From Phytohabitans rumicis (lineage in GTDB: Bacteria > Actinomycetota > Actinomycetes > Mycobacteriales > Micromonosporaceae): a stretch of 64,000 nt of DNA. A program made the translations under genes and the position numbers. This document shows positions 3,395 through 17,572 of the stretch, piece by piece; the stretch's first letter is position 1, and every line of letters starts with the position of its first letter. The stretch lies in NCBI RefSeq assembly GCF_011764445.1, contig NZ_BLPG01000001.1:1-64000 (forward strand). The letters run 5' to 3'. The notes beneath the pieces are model-generated. The model was not told where the DNA came from and searched no databases. It saw only the letters and a list, made by a program, of their open reading frames with translations.

Positions 3395-5026
3395 ATGCAT
3401 GACCGCAACAGCTTCCCCCTCGGCATCCCCGCCCCACGCAAGGCGATCCTGTTGGCCAGGCTGTCGGACAAGCGCGAAGACGTGGACCTGACCGACGAGG
3501 GCATCCCCGCCTCGCTGGAGGACCAGATCCAGCGGATGCGGGACCGCGCCGCCCTGCTTGGTTGGGTGGTTTACAAGGTGATCAAGAATCCGCGGCTGTC
3601 GGCGTACAAGCGTCGGAAGGTCACGTTGCCGGACGGGCGTCGGGAGTATCGGGTGTTCCGCCCGGATCTGCGCGAGGCCCTTGCCGACCTGTGGGCGGGG
3701 CGGGCGACCGCGTTGTTGTGTCTGGACCTGGACCGGGCGTTCCGCGATCCGAAGGACTTGCAGGACTTGATCGATGTGGTGGAGCACGCCCCGCACCCAA
3801 TCGTGGTGGAGTCGTGTACCGACTCGTTGCACATGGAGCGGGGCAAGGACAACTTCGACGCGGAGATTCGGGTGTTGGTGGCTAACAAGGCGTCGCGGGA
3901 TACCGCGCGGCGGGTGTCGATGTGGCGGGAGCGGCAGGCCCGCAACGGCAAGTTCGGCGGGGGCCGTCGTCCGTTCGGGTTCTGCCTCGGTGCCCCGGAC
4001 GTCCCGGACGACGCGATGCCCGAGGACGTGGTGTGCCCCTGGCACGGCGGACGGGACTGCAAGTCCGGGACCTCCACGATCGACTACGAGATCGCGGTGA
4101 TCGCCGACTGTTCCGGCCGCCTGTTGCAGGGGGTCAGCCTCCGCGCGTTGGCCGCCGAGTTGCGGGAGAAGGGAGAGGTGCCGACCGTGACCGGCGCGGC
4201 GTGGTCGGCGGAGACGTTGCGGGAGATCCTGTTGCGTCCGCGTAACGCCGGGTTCATGGTCCACAAGGGCAAGATCCTGGACGGTGTGACCGCGCCGTGG
4301 GAGCCGATCGTGACCCCGGAGGCGTTCTACGCCGTGCGTGATTTGTTGACCGACCCGTCCCGGCGCACCGGGCCGGGCGCGGCGCCGCGCTGGCACGGCA
4401 CCAACATCTACCGGTGCGGCATCTGCACCCCACCCGACAGCGATTCCGGTAGGCCGGTCACGTGTGAGGTGACCTTGGGCGGGCGGGAGCCCCGGTACCG
4501 GTGCAAGAACGCCAACCACCTGACCCGCAACGCCGGCCATGTGGACCGGTTGGTGTTCGCGCACATCGCGTACGCCATCACCCGGCCGGAGGCGTACATG
4601 TTGCTGGCCCCACCGGCGCCGGACGTGGATGCGCCCGCGTTGCGTGGCGAGCGGGCCGCGATCCGGGCGACGTTGGAGCGGTACGCGGTGGAGGAGATGT
4701 TGCAGAAGCGGACACCCGGTCAGGTGGCCGCCGCGACGCAGGCGGGCATTGCCCGGATAGCGGAGATCGATGAGTTGTTGACCGTCAACATCGTCGACGA
4801 TCCCCTCGCTCAGGTGATCAATGCGCCTGATCCGGTGGCCGCGTGGCGGGACGCCGGGTTGGCCAACCAGCGGGTGTTGATCGACCGGATCTGCACCGTG
4901 ACGATCCTGCCGTCCGGCCGCAAGGGACGCGGCTTCGACCCTGCCTCGGTGGACGTGGACCACAAGCACCCGCTCGGCGGGCCGCCAGCCTCGGCTATCG
5001 CCGACGCATTGGCCGCCGCCGCATAG
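3395..5026 (+). CDS. Large serine recombinase (site-specific integrase)
   Basis: Catalyses integration and, with a directionality factor, excision of the element. Residues 17-165 form the resolvase domain: LLARLSDKR holds the nucleophile Ser24, and LDLDRAFRDPKDL matches the conserved DRLxR helix region in divergent form. Next comes the recombinase domain (RNGKFGGGRRPFGF, then LREILLRPRNAGFMVHKGK). A zinc-ribbon-like stretch has Cys pairs near YRCGICTPP and YRCKNANH, followed by a helical C-terminal region. The length of 543 residues is normal for the family. The start lies about 25 nt from the att core without a Shine-Dalgarno sequence. It is followed 22 nt later by a small gene. A remnant of a second copy of its 3' end is at 13308-13370. 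Confidence 0.95.
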   Translation: MHDRNSFPLGIPAPRKAILLARLSDKREDVDLTDEGIPASLEDQIQRMRDRAALLGWVVYKVIKNPRLSAYKRRKVTLPDGRREYRVFRPDLREALADLWAGRATALLCLDLDRAFRDPKDLQDLIDVVEHAPHPIVVESCTDSLHMERGKDNFDAEIRVLVANKASRDTARRVSMWRERQARNGKFGGGRRPFGFCLGAPDVPDDAMPEDVVCPWHGGRDCKSGTSTIDYEIAVIADCSGRLLQGVSLRALAAELREKGEVPTVTGAAWSAETLREILLRPRNAGFMVHKGKILDGVTAPWEPIVTPEAFYAVRDLLTDPSRRTGPGAAPRWHGTNIYRCGICTPPDSDSGRPVTCEVTLGGREPRYRCKNANHLTRNAGHVDRLVFAHIAYAITRPEAYMLLAPPAPDVDAPALRGERAAIRATLERYAVEEMLQKRTPGQVAAATQAGIARIAEIDELLTVNIVDDPLAQVINAPDPVAAWRDAGLANQRVLIDRICTVTILPSGRKGRGFDPASVDVDHKHPLGGPPASAIADALAAAA

Positions 5027-7438: not shown

Positions 7439-7668
7439 CTACCGCACCGGCATGCCGCTCGCTGACCTACCCTCGATCTCCTCGCGCCAGGCCAGGTAGC
7501 CCTCGTCCGCCGTCCGGTACCGCCTCGCCAAGTCGGGATCGGTGGCTAGGCGTGCCTCCATCCCGTCCATCAGCCCGGCCGACTCCACCGAGGTTGCCGT
7601 GCGGCGGCGGGCGGCCGAGCTGTGCCCGCACCACGTTCGCGGTCGGCCGGTGTGGCGGGTTCAGTCAC
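7439..7668 (-). pseudogene. Decayed DUF501 gene
   Basis: Starts with a GTG overlapping the ftsB-like stop (GTGA) and reads VTEPATPADRE; after a frame change it continues as VVRAQLGRPP, the usual beginning of DUF501 proteins. The middle, including the expected Cys motifs, is missing. The frame then resumes as ESAGLMDGMEARLATDP and DEGYLAWREEIEG, resembling the family C-terminus. The remnant is about 75 codons against the normal 150 or more. In actinobacterial chromosomes DUF501 follows ftsB, so this is the expected neighbour in ruins. Confidence 0.6.
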
Positions 7669-9543: not shown

Positions 9544-10248
9544 GTGAAGCTGTACATGGACGAGTCCGGGAACGGGCAGCAGTCGCAGCCGCTGATCGTG
9601 GGTGCGGTAGAAACAGGTGAGGACTCGGAGGAGATAGAGCGACGCATCCAGGACCTGCATCGCCGCGTGTCAGCTCGGCGGAGCCTTAGTGGGCTTCGCA
9701 GTTTCGACGCCTTCCGCAAACACGGGTTCCACGCTTCAACCGATCCGCCCGAGGTTTCTAACCTGTTTCTGGAGCTTATGCAGGACCTGTCGTTCAAGGC
9801 GTATGTCCTGGTTACCGATGGGACTAGCGTTCTGGCTGGTAGTACCGAAATCGACAGGCTTAAGTTTATGTATACGAGCCTCCTTGGCGATCTACTGATT
9901 CGACATCGAGCAGAGCCAGAATTGCTCTGTTACATAGAGCAGAACGACGGCATGAAGCAGCTAGTCCGCAACCTTCCTGATAGTGCAACCCGTCGAGCAC
10001 ACGAAAAGCTAGGGCGTCCCACATCCCTGCCTAGACTCAACGTTGTGATGGTTCCTAAAACGGAGGCAATGTCGATGGCGATCATCGACTACGTCATGAT
10101 AGCTGTTAGTAGGTGGATCCGGTCGAACTATACTACAAAGCCTGAAGATTGGAGCTATCGGGCCTTCCGGATAGTCGAGCCATTCATCTCGATCCTGTAT
10201 TCGTTGGAGCGCGGCCTCATTTCCAGTCGGAAGATGCCACTCCACTAG
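9544..10248 (+). CDS. DUF3800 family protein, candidate retron partner
   Basis: 234-residue protein of the DUF3800 family, thought to have an RNase H-like fold. It begins LYMDESGNG, the family hallmark with putative metal-binding Asp/Glu, and has a late DYVMIAVSRW motif near residue 182 with the second conserved Asp. A GTG start with GGAGAG upstream is used. It lies 129 nt before a retron-type reverse transcriptase on the same strand, and the spacer holds a 13-bp inverted repeat. DUF3800 proteins accompany a subset of retron RTs, in my recollection, so it may be the effector nuclease. GC content is clearly lower than in flanking genes, suggesting separate acquisition. Confidence 0.8.
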   Translation: MKLYMDESGNGQQSQPLIVGAVETGEDSEEIERRIQDLHRRVSARRSLSGLRSFDAFRKHGFHASTDPPEVSNLFLELMQDLSFKAYVLVTDGTSVLAGSTEIDRLKFMYTSLLGDLLIRHRAEPELLCYIEQNDGMKQLVRNLPDSATRRAHEKLGRPTSLPRLNVVMVPKTEAMSMAIIDYVMIAVSRWIRSNYTTKPEDWSYRAFRIVEPFISILYSLERGLISSRKMPLH

Positions 10249-10269
10249 CGTATGGTATCCTACTTCGTT

Positions 10270-10349
10270 GAGTAGGGTCGCGGTCAACTTGGTGCGCGAG
10301 TTCGCGTGCGCTGCAGAATAGTCCTTGCATAGGGAGCGCGACCCTACTC
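10270..10349 (+). ncRNA. Candidate retron msr-msd RNA (13-bp inverted repeat ends)
   Basis: gagtagggtcgcg at 10270-10282 is perfectly complementary to cgcgaccctactc at 10337-10349. The 54-nt interior has a further CGCG/CGCG hairpin near 10295-10306. The arrangement, directly upstream of an RT with retron motifs, resembles the a1/a2 repeats that close retron RNAs. A competing small hairpin (cctact/agtagg, 10259-10276) overlaps the left arm. The interior is short for a retron and I could not identify a branching-guanosine AGC, so an operator or mRNA switch is an alternative. Confidence 0.5.
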
Positions 10350-10377
10350 TCAGGTTATCTCTAAGGCGGGGCGGCGG

Positions 10378-11346
10378 ATGTCTTTCTCGGTCGAGGATCT
10401 CGGGCAGCATTCAGGTGTATCGGTTCGTATTTTGGAGTCGCTTTCTGAGGACCTTCCCGCGGGTGCTGGAAAGCTATTCAGGGCTCAGTCGTTTCGCAAG
10501 AAGCGTGGCGGGCTGCGCGAAATAATCAAGCCGAACCCTTGGCTTGATCTGATTACGAAGAACCTCCGTCGAAGTTTCTTAGCAGTGCTGCCATACCGCC
10601 CACCCGACCACGTCCATGGATTCGTTAACGGACGCTCGACAGTCACCAATGCGTCTGCACATCTTGGTAGGGCCTGTGTCTTGCGCGTCGACCTCGAAGA
10701 TTTCTTCCCTTCGATTGGCTCAGCACAGCTCAAAGCTGCCCTACAAGAGCAGGGATACGACGACAAGGCAGCGAGCCTAGCCGTTAGTATCGTTACCATA
10801 GGCGGCAAGCTGCCAATCGGACTCAGCACCTCACCTTTCTTGTCGAATCTTGCTTTCCAACATACGGATCACATTCTCGCGGAATATGCAGAAGCTGCGG
10901 GATTGTCATTCACCCGCTACGTGGACGATCTTGTATTCTCCGGCGAGGTATCCGATCAACATCTCGCGGCGATCGAGCGCATCCTCAACGACTCGGGTTG
11001 GTCCATAAACCAGCATAAGACTGCATTCATGCGCCGTGGCGGTCCTCAATACGTGACCGGCCTGTACGTAGGCGCCACGGATCACCCACGCATCCCACGC
11101 AAGACAAAGCGTCACATGCGATGGGTATTGCACATCATTACGAAATTTGGCTACGACGAATACATGGCAGAGTTCGGCGGCGAGAACGCCGATATGCTGC
11201 CCCAGCGCTTACTGGGCTGGGCTTGCTATATCGCCGCGGCTGAGCCGGACGTGGGCTACCCACTGTTGCGAGCCTTAAACGAACAACTCCCGCCCGCGTA
11301 TGTTCCGCCTAACGGCTGGCTCATCGGGATTGAGGACTTGGATTAG
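10378..11346 (+). CDS. Retron-type reverse transcriptase
   Basis: 322-residue RNA-directed DNA polymerase. The retron signature NAxxH appears as NASAH (residues 91-95), followed by VDLEDFFPSI with the first catalytic Asp, PIGLSTSPFLSNLAF, the YVDD active site at 181-184, and the retron VTG motif (QYVTGLYVG, about 226). Length is normal for a stand-alone retron RT, with no fused nuclease or protease domain. The ATG follows a GC-rich GGCGGGGCGGCGG leader. With the DUF3800 gene and the intervening inverted repeat it forms a probable three-part antiphage retron. Composition is AT-richer than in the rest of the element. A group II intron RT is unlikely because maturase and endonuclease domains are absent. 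Confidence 0.88.
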   Translation: MSFSVEDLGQHSGVSVRILESLSEDLPAGAGKLFRAQSFRKKRGGLREIIKPNPWLDLITKNLRRSFLAVLPYRPPDHVHGFVNGRSTVTNASAHLGRACVLRVDLEDFFPSIGSAQLKAALQEQGYDDKAASLAVSIVTIGGKLPIGLSTSPFLSNLAFQHTDHILAEYAEAAGLSFTRYVDDLVFSGEVSDQHLAAIERILNDSGWSINQHKTAFMRRGGPQYVTGLYVGATDHPRIPRKTKRHMRWVLHIITKFGYDEYMAEFGGENADMLPQRLLGWACYIAAAEPDVGYPLLRALNEQLPPAYVPPNGWLIGIEDLD

Positions 11347-11726: not shown

Positions 11727-12344
11727 CTAAAGATTTGTTGTCGCCCCTTGATATAGTTTCGAGCCGGTGTAGTAGTCGAACGCGATGCTCACGATCCAAA
11801 CTAAGATACCAACCGTAGCGGAGTGCACGGCACCGATGGATGTCCGCTCGTAGAGAGTTCGACCTGCGATGTAGCCTGTGAGAGCGGGAAGGGTCGCGAA
11901 AAGAAGCCACCAGAGAAGTCTGGCCAATACGTACGACACCGTTCCATTGTCGAAAAAGCCTACCAGAAGGGCAGACATCGGAACGATAACAAACACACCG
12001 GCTAGGCATGTCAACACGGGGGTTCCCGGATCAACCGCTTCAGGTTTAGCGTTTACCGTCGCATCTTTGGGGGAAGGGGATACGGGCGACCATTGATCGG
12101 ATTCGTCCTTCCTTCGAACCCGATCACTTCGGCGTACAGGTGCTGGTGCGAATGTCGGCATAGAGGTCGGGTCGTCATGACCCTCAGTTCGGGACTCGTA
12201 CGCACGGGCGATGACAGCGGCAGCGGCGGCCAAAATGCCCGCACCAAAAGCGGCGTAGATAGGCTCAGTAATGAGCGAACCACAGCATTGCCCTATTGCG
12301 GTTACTGTAGCAATTACGGTAAGGTCTTTGCGTTTGCGATCCAA
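11727..12344 (-). CDS. Multi-pass membrane protein, unknown
   Basis: 205-residue integral membrane protein. A hydrophobic pair of segments covers residues 8-45, a polar cytosolic or external loop runs about 48-105, and three further membrane segments follow (PVLTCLAGVFVIVPMSALLV, LLWWLLFATLPALTGYIAG, TVGILVWIVSIAF). The ATG has GAGAGAGGG upstream. It is preceded 15 nt upstream by a tiny membrane-peptide gene on the same strand. AT-richer composition links it to the retron-like island. I do not recognise the family; a membrane effector role next to the RT is possible but unsupported. Confidence 0.65.
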   Translation of the reverse strand: MDRKRKDLTVIATVTAIGQCCGSLITEPIYAAFGAGILAAAAAVIARAYESRTEGHDDPTSMPTFAPAPVRRSDRVRRKDESDQWSPVSPSPKDATVNAKPEAVDPGTPVLTCLAGVFVIVPMSALLVGFFDNGTVSYVLARLLWWLLFATLPALTGYIAGRTLYERTSIGAVHSATVGILVWIVSIAFDYYTGSKLYQGATTNL

Positions 12345-15596: not shown

Positions 15597-16055
15597 ATGG
15601 CAGACACGTCAAGCACCCCGAGCACGCCGAACCCTGTCCCGTCCGCGCGCCGGTACCGGTCGCGTGTCCAGACCGCCCGGGATCATCGGCTCACTCCACG
15701 GTTCACCGAGGAGGAGCTGGCCGCGATCCGGTCCGCCGCCGAGACGTCCGGGTTGACGTTGACCGGCTTCTGCGCCCTCGCGGCGCTCGCCGTCGCGCGC
15801 CGGCAGCCCGGCCAGCCCCGCATGTCCGGCGACGCGGCGGGCGTGGGTGTGGAGGAGTTGGCGGAGATGCAGCGGGAGCTGTTCGCCGCCCGGACCGCGG
15901 TCAACCGCACCGGCACCAACCTCAACCAGGCCGTTGCGCGGCTCAACTCGACCGGCGAGGCGCCGGTGTGGCTTGAGCACGCGGTCGACCGGGTGACGAC
16001 GGCCGTGCAGAAGGTGGACGCGCTCGCCTCGCACATCCACGACCGGTTGGCGTGA
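15597..16055 (+). CDS. mobC: MobC-type relaxosome accessory protein
   Basis: 152-residue DNA-binding accessory protein that helps the relaxase open oriT. The N-terminus is polar; residues 35-65 (RFTEEELAAIRSAAETSGLT and following) resemble the ribbon-helix-helix-like region of MobC. The C-terminal half has the family motif AVNRTGTNLNQAVARLN. The GTGA overlap with the next gene indicates translational coupling to the relaxase. The ATG is chosen because MADTSS is a natural start; a GTG seven codons upstream is possible. Confidence 0.85.
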   Translation: MADTSSTPSTPNPVPSARRYRSRVQTARDHRLTPRFTEEELAAIRSAAETSGLTLTGFCALAALAVARRQPGQPRMSGDAAGVGVEELAEMQRELFAARTAVNRTGTNLNQAVARLNSTGEAPVWLEHAVDRVTTAVQKVDALASHIHDRLA

Positions 16056-17572
16056 TCCCCGCCGTACATCCACGCGGCACCAACGTAGGCGGACTTCTCC
16101 GCTACCTCTTCGGTGTTGGCAAGCGGGAGGAGCACGTCCGCCCACGGGTGGTGGCCGCGTGGGACGGCGCCGGCCCGCTCACCGGGCTGCAACCCCCAGC
16201 CCAGGCGGGCGGGTGGCACGACGTCCGCGCCTTGACGGAACTGTTGGAGCAGCCGGTCCGCGCCGGGCGTAACCCGCCGCGCAAGGCGGTGTGGCACTGC
16301 TCGATCCGCAACCACCCCACCGACCGCGTCCTGACGGACGCGCAGTGGGCGCACATCGGCGGCGAGGTGATGGCCTCCGTCGGGCTCGCCCCGCACGGCG
16401 ACCCGGACGCGGTGCGATGGCTGGCGGTACGCCACAACGACGACCACATCCACCTCGTGGCAACCCTGGTACGCCAGGACCGGCGCACCGTGTGGCCGTG
16501 GCAGGACAAGCGCAAGGCCCAGGCCGCCTGCCGGGACTTGGAGGAACGCTACGGCCTTTACCGGGTAGCGCCCGCAGGTGCCGGGTCGCGTCGGTGGCCG
16601 AGCCCGGCCGAGCTGAACAAGGCCGCCCGCCTGGGCGCCAACAACAGCGAGGCGAGGGCTAGCAACGCCCGGTCCGGCAGCCGCTCCGGGCGGACGGTGG
16701 CGCCGCGTGAGGTGCTGCGCCGCCAGGTACGTGAGGTGGCCGCGATCGCCACCGACGAGCGGGACTTCTTCGCCCGCCTCGCTCACGCGGGCGTGCTGGT
16801 CAGGCTCCGGCATAGCACCCGCGATCCCGGGCAGGTGACCGGGTACGCGGTCGGCCTGGACGGGCACACCACCGCCGCTGGTGCCACCGTGTGGTACGGC
16901 GGGGGCCGCCTCGCGGCGGACTTGACGTTGCCGCAACTGCGGTCCCGGTGGACCGGGACACCCGCCCACCCGGGCGGGTCGACCGCGTCCCGGCTCGCCG
17001 GCACCGGGATGATCCCGCCGCAGCTGTCCCGCCACGCCGCCGAGACGGTCGAGGAGGCCGCCGCCGCGATGCGGGCCGCGCCGAGTCCCGGGGTCGCCGC
17101 CGCGATCGCCTACGCCGCCGCCGACCTGCTGACCGCGACCGCGTGGGCCTGGGAAGGCCGCACGGGCGGGCCGTTGACGGACGCGGCCGGCTGGTTCGAC
17201 CTGGCCGCCCACGACCTGCGCGGCCGGGTTCCGGCCCGCCGGGTCTGGCAGGCGGGACATCTGCGGGCGATGGCCCGGCTGATCGCCGTCTGGGGCACGC
17301 TGTCCCGGGACCAGGACATCACGGATGCCCTGCACCTGATGTACACGCTCGCCGCGTTCGCGGAGACCTTGGCCGATCTACGCGAGGCGCAGGCCGACCT
17401 ACGCCAGGCGCGGGACCGTCTGTATCAGGCGCGGGCCGCCCGGAGCGCGGCCGGGCAGCTTCGGGACTACCGGCCGCCCGCCGGGACACCGGGACGGGGT
17501 ACGGCGGGTCATGCTGCCCCGCCGATCGTGCCGGACCTGCGCTCGACGGACCGGCGCGGCCGGCACCGGTGA
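16052..17572 (+). CDS. MobA/VirD2-type relaxase (mobilization nuclease)
   Basis: 506-residue transesterase that nicks oriT and leads the transferred strand. The N-terminus has IPAVHPRGTNVGGLLRYLFG; the metal-binding motif HNDDHIH is at about 128-134, followed by LVATLVRQDRR, typical of the family. Residues 190 onward form a variable, Ala/Arg-rich helical region. A conserved Tyr nucleophile cannot be assigned with certainty by eye. The GTG start overlaps the mobC stop by 4 nt. A broken fragment of a homologous gene is at 9190-9345. With no coupling-protein gene nearby, it probably uses a helper element's machinery. Confidence 0.9.
   Translation: MIPAVHPRGTNVGGLLRYLFGVGKREEHVRPRVVAAWDGAGPLTGLQPPAQAGGWHDVRALTELLEQPVRAGRNPPRKAVWHCSIRNHPTDRVLTDAQWAHIGGEVMASVGLAPHGDPDAVRWLAVRHNDDHIHLVATLVRQDRRTVWPWQDKRKAQAACRDLEERYGLYRVAPAGAGSRRWPSPAELNKAARLGANNSEARASNARSGSRSGRTVAPREVLRRQVREVAAIATDERDFFARLAHAGVLVRLRHSTRDPGQVTGYAVGLDGHTTAAGATVWYGGGRLAADLTLPQLRSRWTGTPAHPGGSTASRLAGTGMIPPQLSRHAAETVEEAAAAMRAAPSPGVAAAIAYAAADLLTATAWAWEGRTGGPLTDAAGWFDLAAHDLRGRVPARRVWQAGHLRAMARLIAVWGTLSRDQDITDALHLMYTLAAFAETLADLREAQADLRQARDRLYQARAARSAAGQLRDYRPPAGTPGRGTAGHAAPPIVPDLRSTDRRGRHR

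Follow-up and report, generated by a model that had tools for sequence, protein, structure and literature searches.

Retrons are generally viewed as makers of long, hairpinned DNA that serves as a sensor. Among their types, type VII is said, in the Mestre 2020 classification, to be defined by a DUF3800 partner, and the PADLOC model names agree: type VII-A1 is a fusion of reverse transcriptase (RT) and DUF3800 (PDLC02957/02958), and type VII-A2 has separate models for the RT (PDLC02953) and for DUF3800 (PDLC02917). In validated retrons the closing ends of the RNA measure about 8–30 bases, the msr carries one to three hairpins of 7–10 bp with 3–10-nt loops, the msd hairpin reaches about 10–50 bp, and the priming G, most often in TAGC, lies at the inner end of a1 (PMC6868368). 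Binding by RT-Eco1 requires a core with an 8-bp stem and a three-base loop, and RT-Eco3 binds a 9-bp stem, also with a three-base loop (PMC6868368). No paper on a DUF3800 retron was found in the literature searched, from which most subscription papers are absent, and this is no proof of novelty.

The locus described here lies in a 64,000-nt stretch of the Phytohabitans rumicis genome (contig NZ_BLPG01000001.1, positions 1–64,000; hereafter the window). A DUF3800 gene and a retron-type RT gene are separated by a gap of 129 nt, in which a short structured RNA is encoded:

9544–10248, + strand: DUF3800 gene, ORF of 234 aa
10253–10261, + strand: extended −10-like promoter element, TGG-TATCCT, with a TANNNT box
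10270–10349, between the DUF3800 and RT genes: structured RNA, 80 nt
10270–10282, + strand: P1 5' arm (a1-like), GAGTAGGGTCGCG; exact inverted repeat, covariation over 10 loci
10292–10309, + strand: P2 hairpin, GTGCGCG-AGTT-CGCGTGC, of the msr-like recognition type; conserved pairing
10310–10336, + strand: J23 strand, 27 nt with AATAG; sole stretch that could hold an msd template
10337–10349, + strand: P1 3' arm (a2-like), CGCGACCCTACTC; exact inverted repeat, covariation over 10 loci
10378–11346, + strand: retron-type RT gene, ORF of 322 aa
10648–10662, 10918–10929 and 11053–11061, + strand: RT motifs NASAH, YVDD and VTG

At strict cut-offs, relatives of this RT are rare. With the window's own genome counted each time, a search at E ≤ 1e-30 hit 2 of 397 genomes from the order, and searches at E ≤ 1e-40 hit 4 of 354 from the family and 2 of 394 from the class. 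A scan of genome contigs with a five-row RT alignment, which reaches only contigs matching short peptide patterns, returned 26 loci. Nine of these (L021–L029; from Dactylosporangium, Catenuloplanes, two Streptomyces, Actinoplanes, Herbidospora and three Nocardioides) encode RTs 41–69% identical to that of the window, and the other 17 are 29–35% identical; eight viral RT loci show 23–30% identity. A single-protein scan of genome contigs gave 30 stretches, none of them a relative, and a two-row alignment scan of viral contigs gave 45, again with no relative among them. Two exact RNA patterns were absent from the viral contigs, and the fused RT-DUF3800 protein had no match in phages at 1e-30 and a single, unrelated stretch in viral contigs.

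The order DUF3800–RNA–RT is common to ten actinobacterial loci, the window counted, with DUF3800 directly upstream of the RT in all ten (in L028 as broken pieces); the partner on which type VII turns, fused or adjacent, is thereby present at every one. These assignments used a DUF3800 profile built from proteins of five of the ten loci, and at E ≤ 1 it detected no DUF3800 gene upstream of the RT at any of 25 other RT loci, one of which (L042) comes without upstream DNA. An RNA covariance model searched against 40 sources recovered its ten source loci and only weak others. Across the 394 class genomes, under strict filters that lose weak matches, it matched two at E ≤ 0.001, the identical two genomes given by the RT search. 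The RNA and the RT travel together where sampled. At L028 (1937–3851, Nocardioides sp. TF02-7) both the DUF3800 and the RT ORFs are broken, and the RNA still pairs and scores. Separately, twelve Bacteroidota-type RT loci (L030–L035, L038–L041, L043 and L044) have an ORF of 347–374 aa directly upstream, alike by eye; the one scanned in PADLOC, L031, matched only mad8, and that weakly.

Blastn similarity to the window, seen in six of the nine relatives, starts no earlier than 9544 and ends by 11284, so that the unit consists of DUF3800, RNA and RT. A further conserved gene was sought among the three flanking ORFs at 7665, 8531 and 11727 and rejected, as these match nothing below E 0.15 beside the relatives. 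The last of them, a 205-aa ORF just 3' of the RT (11727–12344, − strand, GC 54.9%), has no Pfam or PADLOC match, and no counterpart was found in the relatives' loci. The module had been described as richer in AT than its surroundings, and its GC content is indeed 54.6% in the DUF3800 gene, 58.9% in the gap and 55.5% in the RT gene, against 70% for the window. The same pattern recurs in all eight relatives measured, L028 being left out (module 0.51–0.60, flanks 0.59–0.69); it therefore fits a travelling module, from which no date of arrival in this genome can be derived.

Two pairs of direct repeats, 97–99% identical (5520–5819/13496–13795 and 6319–6390/14307–14378), each about 8 kb apart, bracket the stretch with the retron unit. 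The unit also lies between genes for a serine recombinase with Resolvase and Recombinase domains (3395–5026) and for a relaxase like MobA/VirD2 (16052–17572), and may thus be carried by an element that is integrative and mobilisable. No tRNA gene was found in the 64-kb window. Such genes lie near the unit in two relatives (L021:1051–1138 and L023:1866–1937), a pattern as for islands inserted at tRNA genes.

The sequence-only reading had assigned the RT to the retron type, and the assignment holds: NAxxH, YVDD and VTG occur in the window RT and in all eight intact relatives, and both retron profiles and solved retron RTs match. In PADLOC the window RT matches RT_III-A (3.5e-62, 208.2 bits) and RT_VII-A2 (1.2e-60, 203.5 bits), scores that leave it between the two, nearly tied. 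The best PADLOC RT model is VII-A2 for L021 and L029 and VII-A1 for L024. A five-row profile of the family best matches the solved retron RTs Kva2 (5.9e-31) and Ec86 (3.7e-30). The RT is single-copy in the window's genome.

The DUF3800 partner is likewise clear in PADLOC (234-aa ORF against DUF3800_VII, PDLC02917: 3.8e-18, 63.7 bits), though it falls below the Pfam cut-off (18.2 bits, with the cut-off at 21). Its predicted structure has an RNase HII-like (RNase H-like) fold, and the protein is a predicted RNase H-fold partner or effector, with D6, E7, E132 and D182 as candidate catalytic residues. Identity to the RNase HII, H2 and H3 rows aligned with it is 9–19%, and nuclease activity of DUF3800 is only predicted. 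A catalytic rearrangement has been reported for DUF3800. A PDB sequence search with a two-row DUF3800 profile gave no match at E ≤ 1; in a viral structure library the best match was a phage DUF3800 protein (E 1.8e-6), the others being weak, and a plasmid search for DUF3800 gave none at 1e-4. The DUF3800_VII model matches 4 of 396 genomes of the phylum, the window's own counted. DUF3800_VII-like genes were seen in three genomes of the phylum (L010, L011 and L012); tblastn finds no RT like the window's in the 5.8–8.0 kb examined at each, and these loci were left out of the RNA comparison. Among four proteins tested, DUF3800_VII matches those of the window, L024 and L029, and no PADLOC model matches that of L021. 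In this last locus (1737–2864, Dactylosporangium vinaceum) the DUF3800 protein is extended at its N terminus by about 140 residues and has its DE pair replaced; the RNA and RT look intact despite this.

The gap between the genes had been noted for a 13-bp inverted repeat, likened to the a1/a2 ends of a retron RNA. The repeat is exact, with a spacer of 54 nt. On its own it is only mildly unusual, because 9 of 1,486 overlapping 129-nt blocks of the window, possibly counting its own, contain an exact repeat of at least 13 bp. A single-sequence fold of the gap is ordinary (z = −0.91; 34 of 200 shuffles as good). The RNA structure rises above chance because it is conserved, with covariation, in relatives: a conserved structure upstream of homologous RTs, whose absence had been named beforehand as grounds for refutation, is present at all ten separate-gene loci and at two loci with fused genes described below. 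P1 forms a closing stem of 10–15 bp in all twelve RNAs, with one mismatch in L025, and its covariation over ten loci bears out the likeness to a1/a2.

In the ten-row alignment, 92.4% of cells are standard pairs, and 29 cells are doubly changed against 9.7 ± 2.6 in shuffles. The covariation score is 0.467 against 0.239 in shuffles, and paired-cell share, double changes and score were each reached in 0 of 500. Every slid register of this alignment scores lower. A seven-row set without Nocardioides gives 95.8% paired cells and 17 doubly changed cells against 6.7. Two of the five pair measures over the ten rows are weaker and lie closer to the shuffles: pairs with a double change number 8 against 5.5, a value reached in 20 of 500 shuffles, and further pair types number 24 against 22.7, reached in 164 of 500.

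P2 has seven of seven standard pairs and a loop of 3–4 nt in all twelve RNAs, with a C-G to U-A double change in three of the ten loci, the three Nocardioides. In plain-energy folding P1 is favoured in 12 of 12 RNAs. P2 in register exceeds a mean probability of 0.5 in only 8 of the 12 ensembles (0.26 for the window RNA), and thus rests more on conservation than on energy. By analogy with RT-Eco1 and RT-Eco3, P2 could serve as the RT-binding core. Over six loci, a 39-nt core of the RNA reaches an identity of 0.87, higher than any of 291 RT blocks of the same length (maximum 0.82), and the RT third codon positions in those loci are 0.41 identical; L025 and the three Nocardioides loci are omitted from this count because their loop or junction lengths differ. 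The first base of a TANNNT box lies 11–15 nt upstream of the P1 5' arm in 12 of 12 loci (the chance of one within the 14 nt examined is about 0.036 per random position), and the RNA therefore probably begins at or just before P1. Comparison between loci thus shows a conserved three-part unit with a conserved RNA structure.

Known RNA families give no counterpart in the scans run. Against 4,227 Rfam families there was no match at the window RNA (E ≤ 10). At E ≤ 1 there was none at the RNAs of the nine relatives, in whose loci six matches lie elsewhere, and none in the fused loci. Rfam 15 includes families named for DUF3800 and for RTs, and the structured RNAs DUF3800-I, DUF3800-IX, RT-2, RT-3 and RT-16, which carry the names of the same gene classes, do not match the window RNA.

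One of the closest known systems is type VII-A1. The best weak match of the RNA model falls directly upstream of an RT on the Aminobacter plasmid pANY103b (L009; E 0.18, and 0.025 in a second search). Here RT and DUF3800 form a single protein, which matches PADLOC RT-DUF3800_VII-A1 in full (833.7 bits). The next match (E 0.066) is at L058, Rhizobium p11515TR-A, where the fused protein is 59% identical to that of L009 over 587 aa and is assigned to VII-A1 by that identity. The model matches being weak, both RNA assignments rest on position and hand-checked pairing. Both loci share with the window a short upstream RNA, which in these two has a perfect stem of 10–11 bp and a P2 with the loop AGT (GCG-AGT-CGC). 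The DUF3800 parts carry D-E, E and D by string match, as in the window. Among 28 RTs placed in a tree, those of the window family form one clade (100/99) that adjoins the two fused rows as sister with support of 84/93, below the starred level; this placement is suggestive only. The tree, like the protein alignments, omits the broken L028; it also omits L060 and 12 of the 25 RT loci outside the family. The differences from VII-A1 are as follows. The window has separate genes, DUF3800 first; its RT is 32–33% identical to the fused RTs and scores 186.9 bits with the VII-A1 profile, against 833.7 for L009; and it has YVDD, whereas L009 has YADD and a string test in L058 finds neither. Just upstream of the fused retron of L009, a second gene (956–2545) is annotated as a reverse transcriptase-domain protein.

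Type VII-A2 shares the separate gene models, which match both window proteins (203.5 and 63.7 bits), but the window RT scores slightly better with the III-A model (208.2), and the comparison with VII-A2 is one of profiles. A clade with the phosphoribosyltransferase retron L061 (Rhizobium leguminosarum pRlvC), which we take to be type III-A from its partner, is nearby in the tree. L061 is among the next relatives and has a stem before its RT; it differs from the window in its upstream phosphoribosyltransferase gene and in a stem interior of 142 nt that contains a 12-bp hairpin.

Several features of a classical retron are present in the window: an RT with NAxxH/YxDD/VTG, complementary ends and an msr-type hairpin. 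The RNA is, however, small. The sequence-only reading had anticipated a short interior and hence a minimal RNA, and across the twelve RNAs the interior is 52–62 nt, against 104–193 nt in six other RT loci, where it was taken from the best-scoring stem upstream of the RT (at L059, with 193 nt, a stem of only 7 bp). From stem to stem the twelve RNAs measure 73–86 nt, and J23 is 25–31 nt long in each. An ungapped test for an msd hairpin in J23 found a longest stem of 3–5 bp in 12 of 12 RNAs; the same test reaches at least 10 bp in three of the six comparator loci. A motif of the TAGC class at the a1 end is absent in 10 of 12 RNAs, L028 and L029 having GAGC, but the string test used sees a listed motif in only two of the six comparators and is therefore not decisive. 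Inside J23, TAGC or CAGC occurs in 8 of 12 RNAs, and the window J23 has CAGA and TAGT. With so short an interior, and with no stem over 5 bp inside J23, the locus would be a minimal retron whose DNA product could not exceed about 25–31 nt. Because no msd hairpin was found, we place it beside type VII by its proteins, as a retron-like unit and not as a classical msr-msd retron.

We therefore favour, with a probability of about 0.6, the reading that the three parts make up a retron-like defence unit belonging to the type VII (RT and DUF3800) group, with a minimal RNA and acting as follows. It is probably a retron directed against phages, in which the RNA could template only a very short DNA copy, and the steps proposed are modelled on the general retron mechanism. 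The RNA would be transcribed on its own and bound by the RT through P2. The RT would prime on a guanosine in the junction and copy at most J23, so that either a very short msDNA or no more than an RT-RNA complex would result. The RT-RNA(-DNA) complex would, as in other retrons, keep the RNase HII-like DUF3800 inactive until phage interference with the complex released it. The freed DUF3800 would then cut nucleic acid (RNA, or the RNA in RNA-DNA hybrids) and halt growth.

A bolder extension, which we put forward tentatively and at less than even odds, is that DUF3800 (type VII) retrons, separate and fused, have lost the msd. They would share a uniform RNA of 73–86 nt and make an msDNA of about 25–30 nt or less, or none, and an RT-RNA or RT-RNA-DNA hybrid complex would directly occupy an effector that resembles RNase HII and naturally acts on RNA-DNA hybrids.

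The absence of an msd hairpin and a J23 of just 25–31 nt also suit control by RNA only, in which the RNA would be a bound antitoxin, or a scaffold for DUF3800 and RT, and the RT would be an RNA-binding or signalling part that makes no useful DNA. DUF3800 domains have been reported with putative ncRNAs, in a statement that names no RT, and the DUF3800-named families in Rfam point the same way. We nevertheless regard this reading as unlikely, since YVDD and region X are retained in the window and its eight intact relatives, RNA and RT co-occur in the sampled genomes, and no Rfam family matches the RNA in the scans run. It is very improbable that the locus is a conventional retron with a longer msr-msd RNA, of which the structure described here would be just a part. 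The longer stem interiors of the six other RT loci would allow for one, but in the window the promoter-like box stops 8 nt short of P1, and the stem-to-stem length is held within its narrow range in all twelve RNAs. Synthesis of templated repeats or of homopolymers in place of branched msDNA, as known from defence-associated RTs, would suit so short a template strand; it too seems a poor prospect, as the RT groups with retron RTs and has region X and VTG. The intergenic position of the inverted repeat and its exact, GC-rich stem might suggest a terminator or attenuator of the ordinary kind. We reject this almost entirely because no T-run follows the stem, and because its 54-nt interior holds a conserved hairpin and the RNA core surpasses in conservation every RT block of the same length in the six loci compared.

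An RNA with room for just 25–31 templated bases raises the question of what purpose the RT serves in this minimal, type VII-like unit. At about 80 nt, the RNA is small, well bounded and easy to test. If the DNA is real, the unit would be a very compact DNA-making cassette; if no DNA is made, the role of the RT-RNA complex would be separated from that of DNA. A predicted RNase HII-like partner is also linked here to a system that would naturally produce RNA-DNA hybrids.
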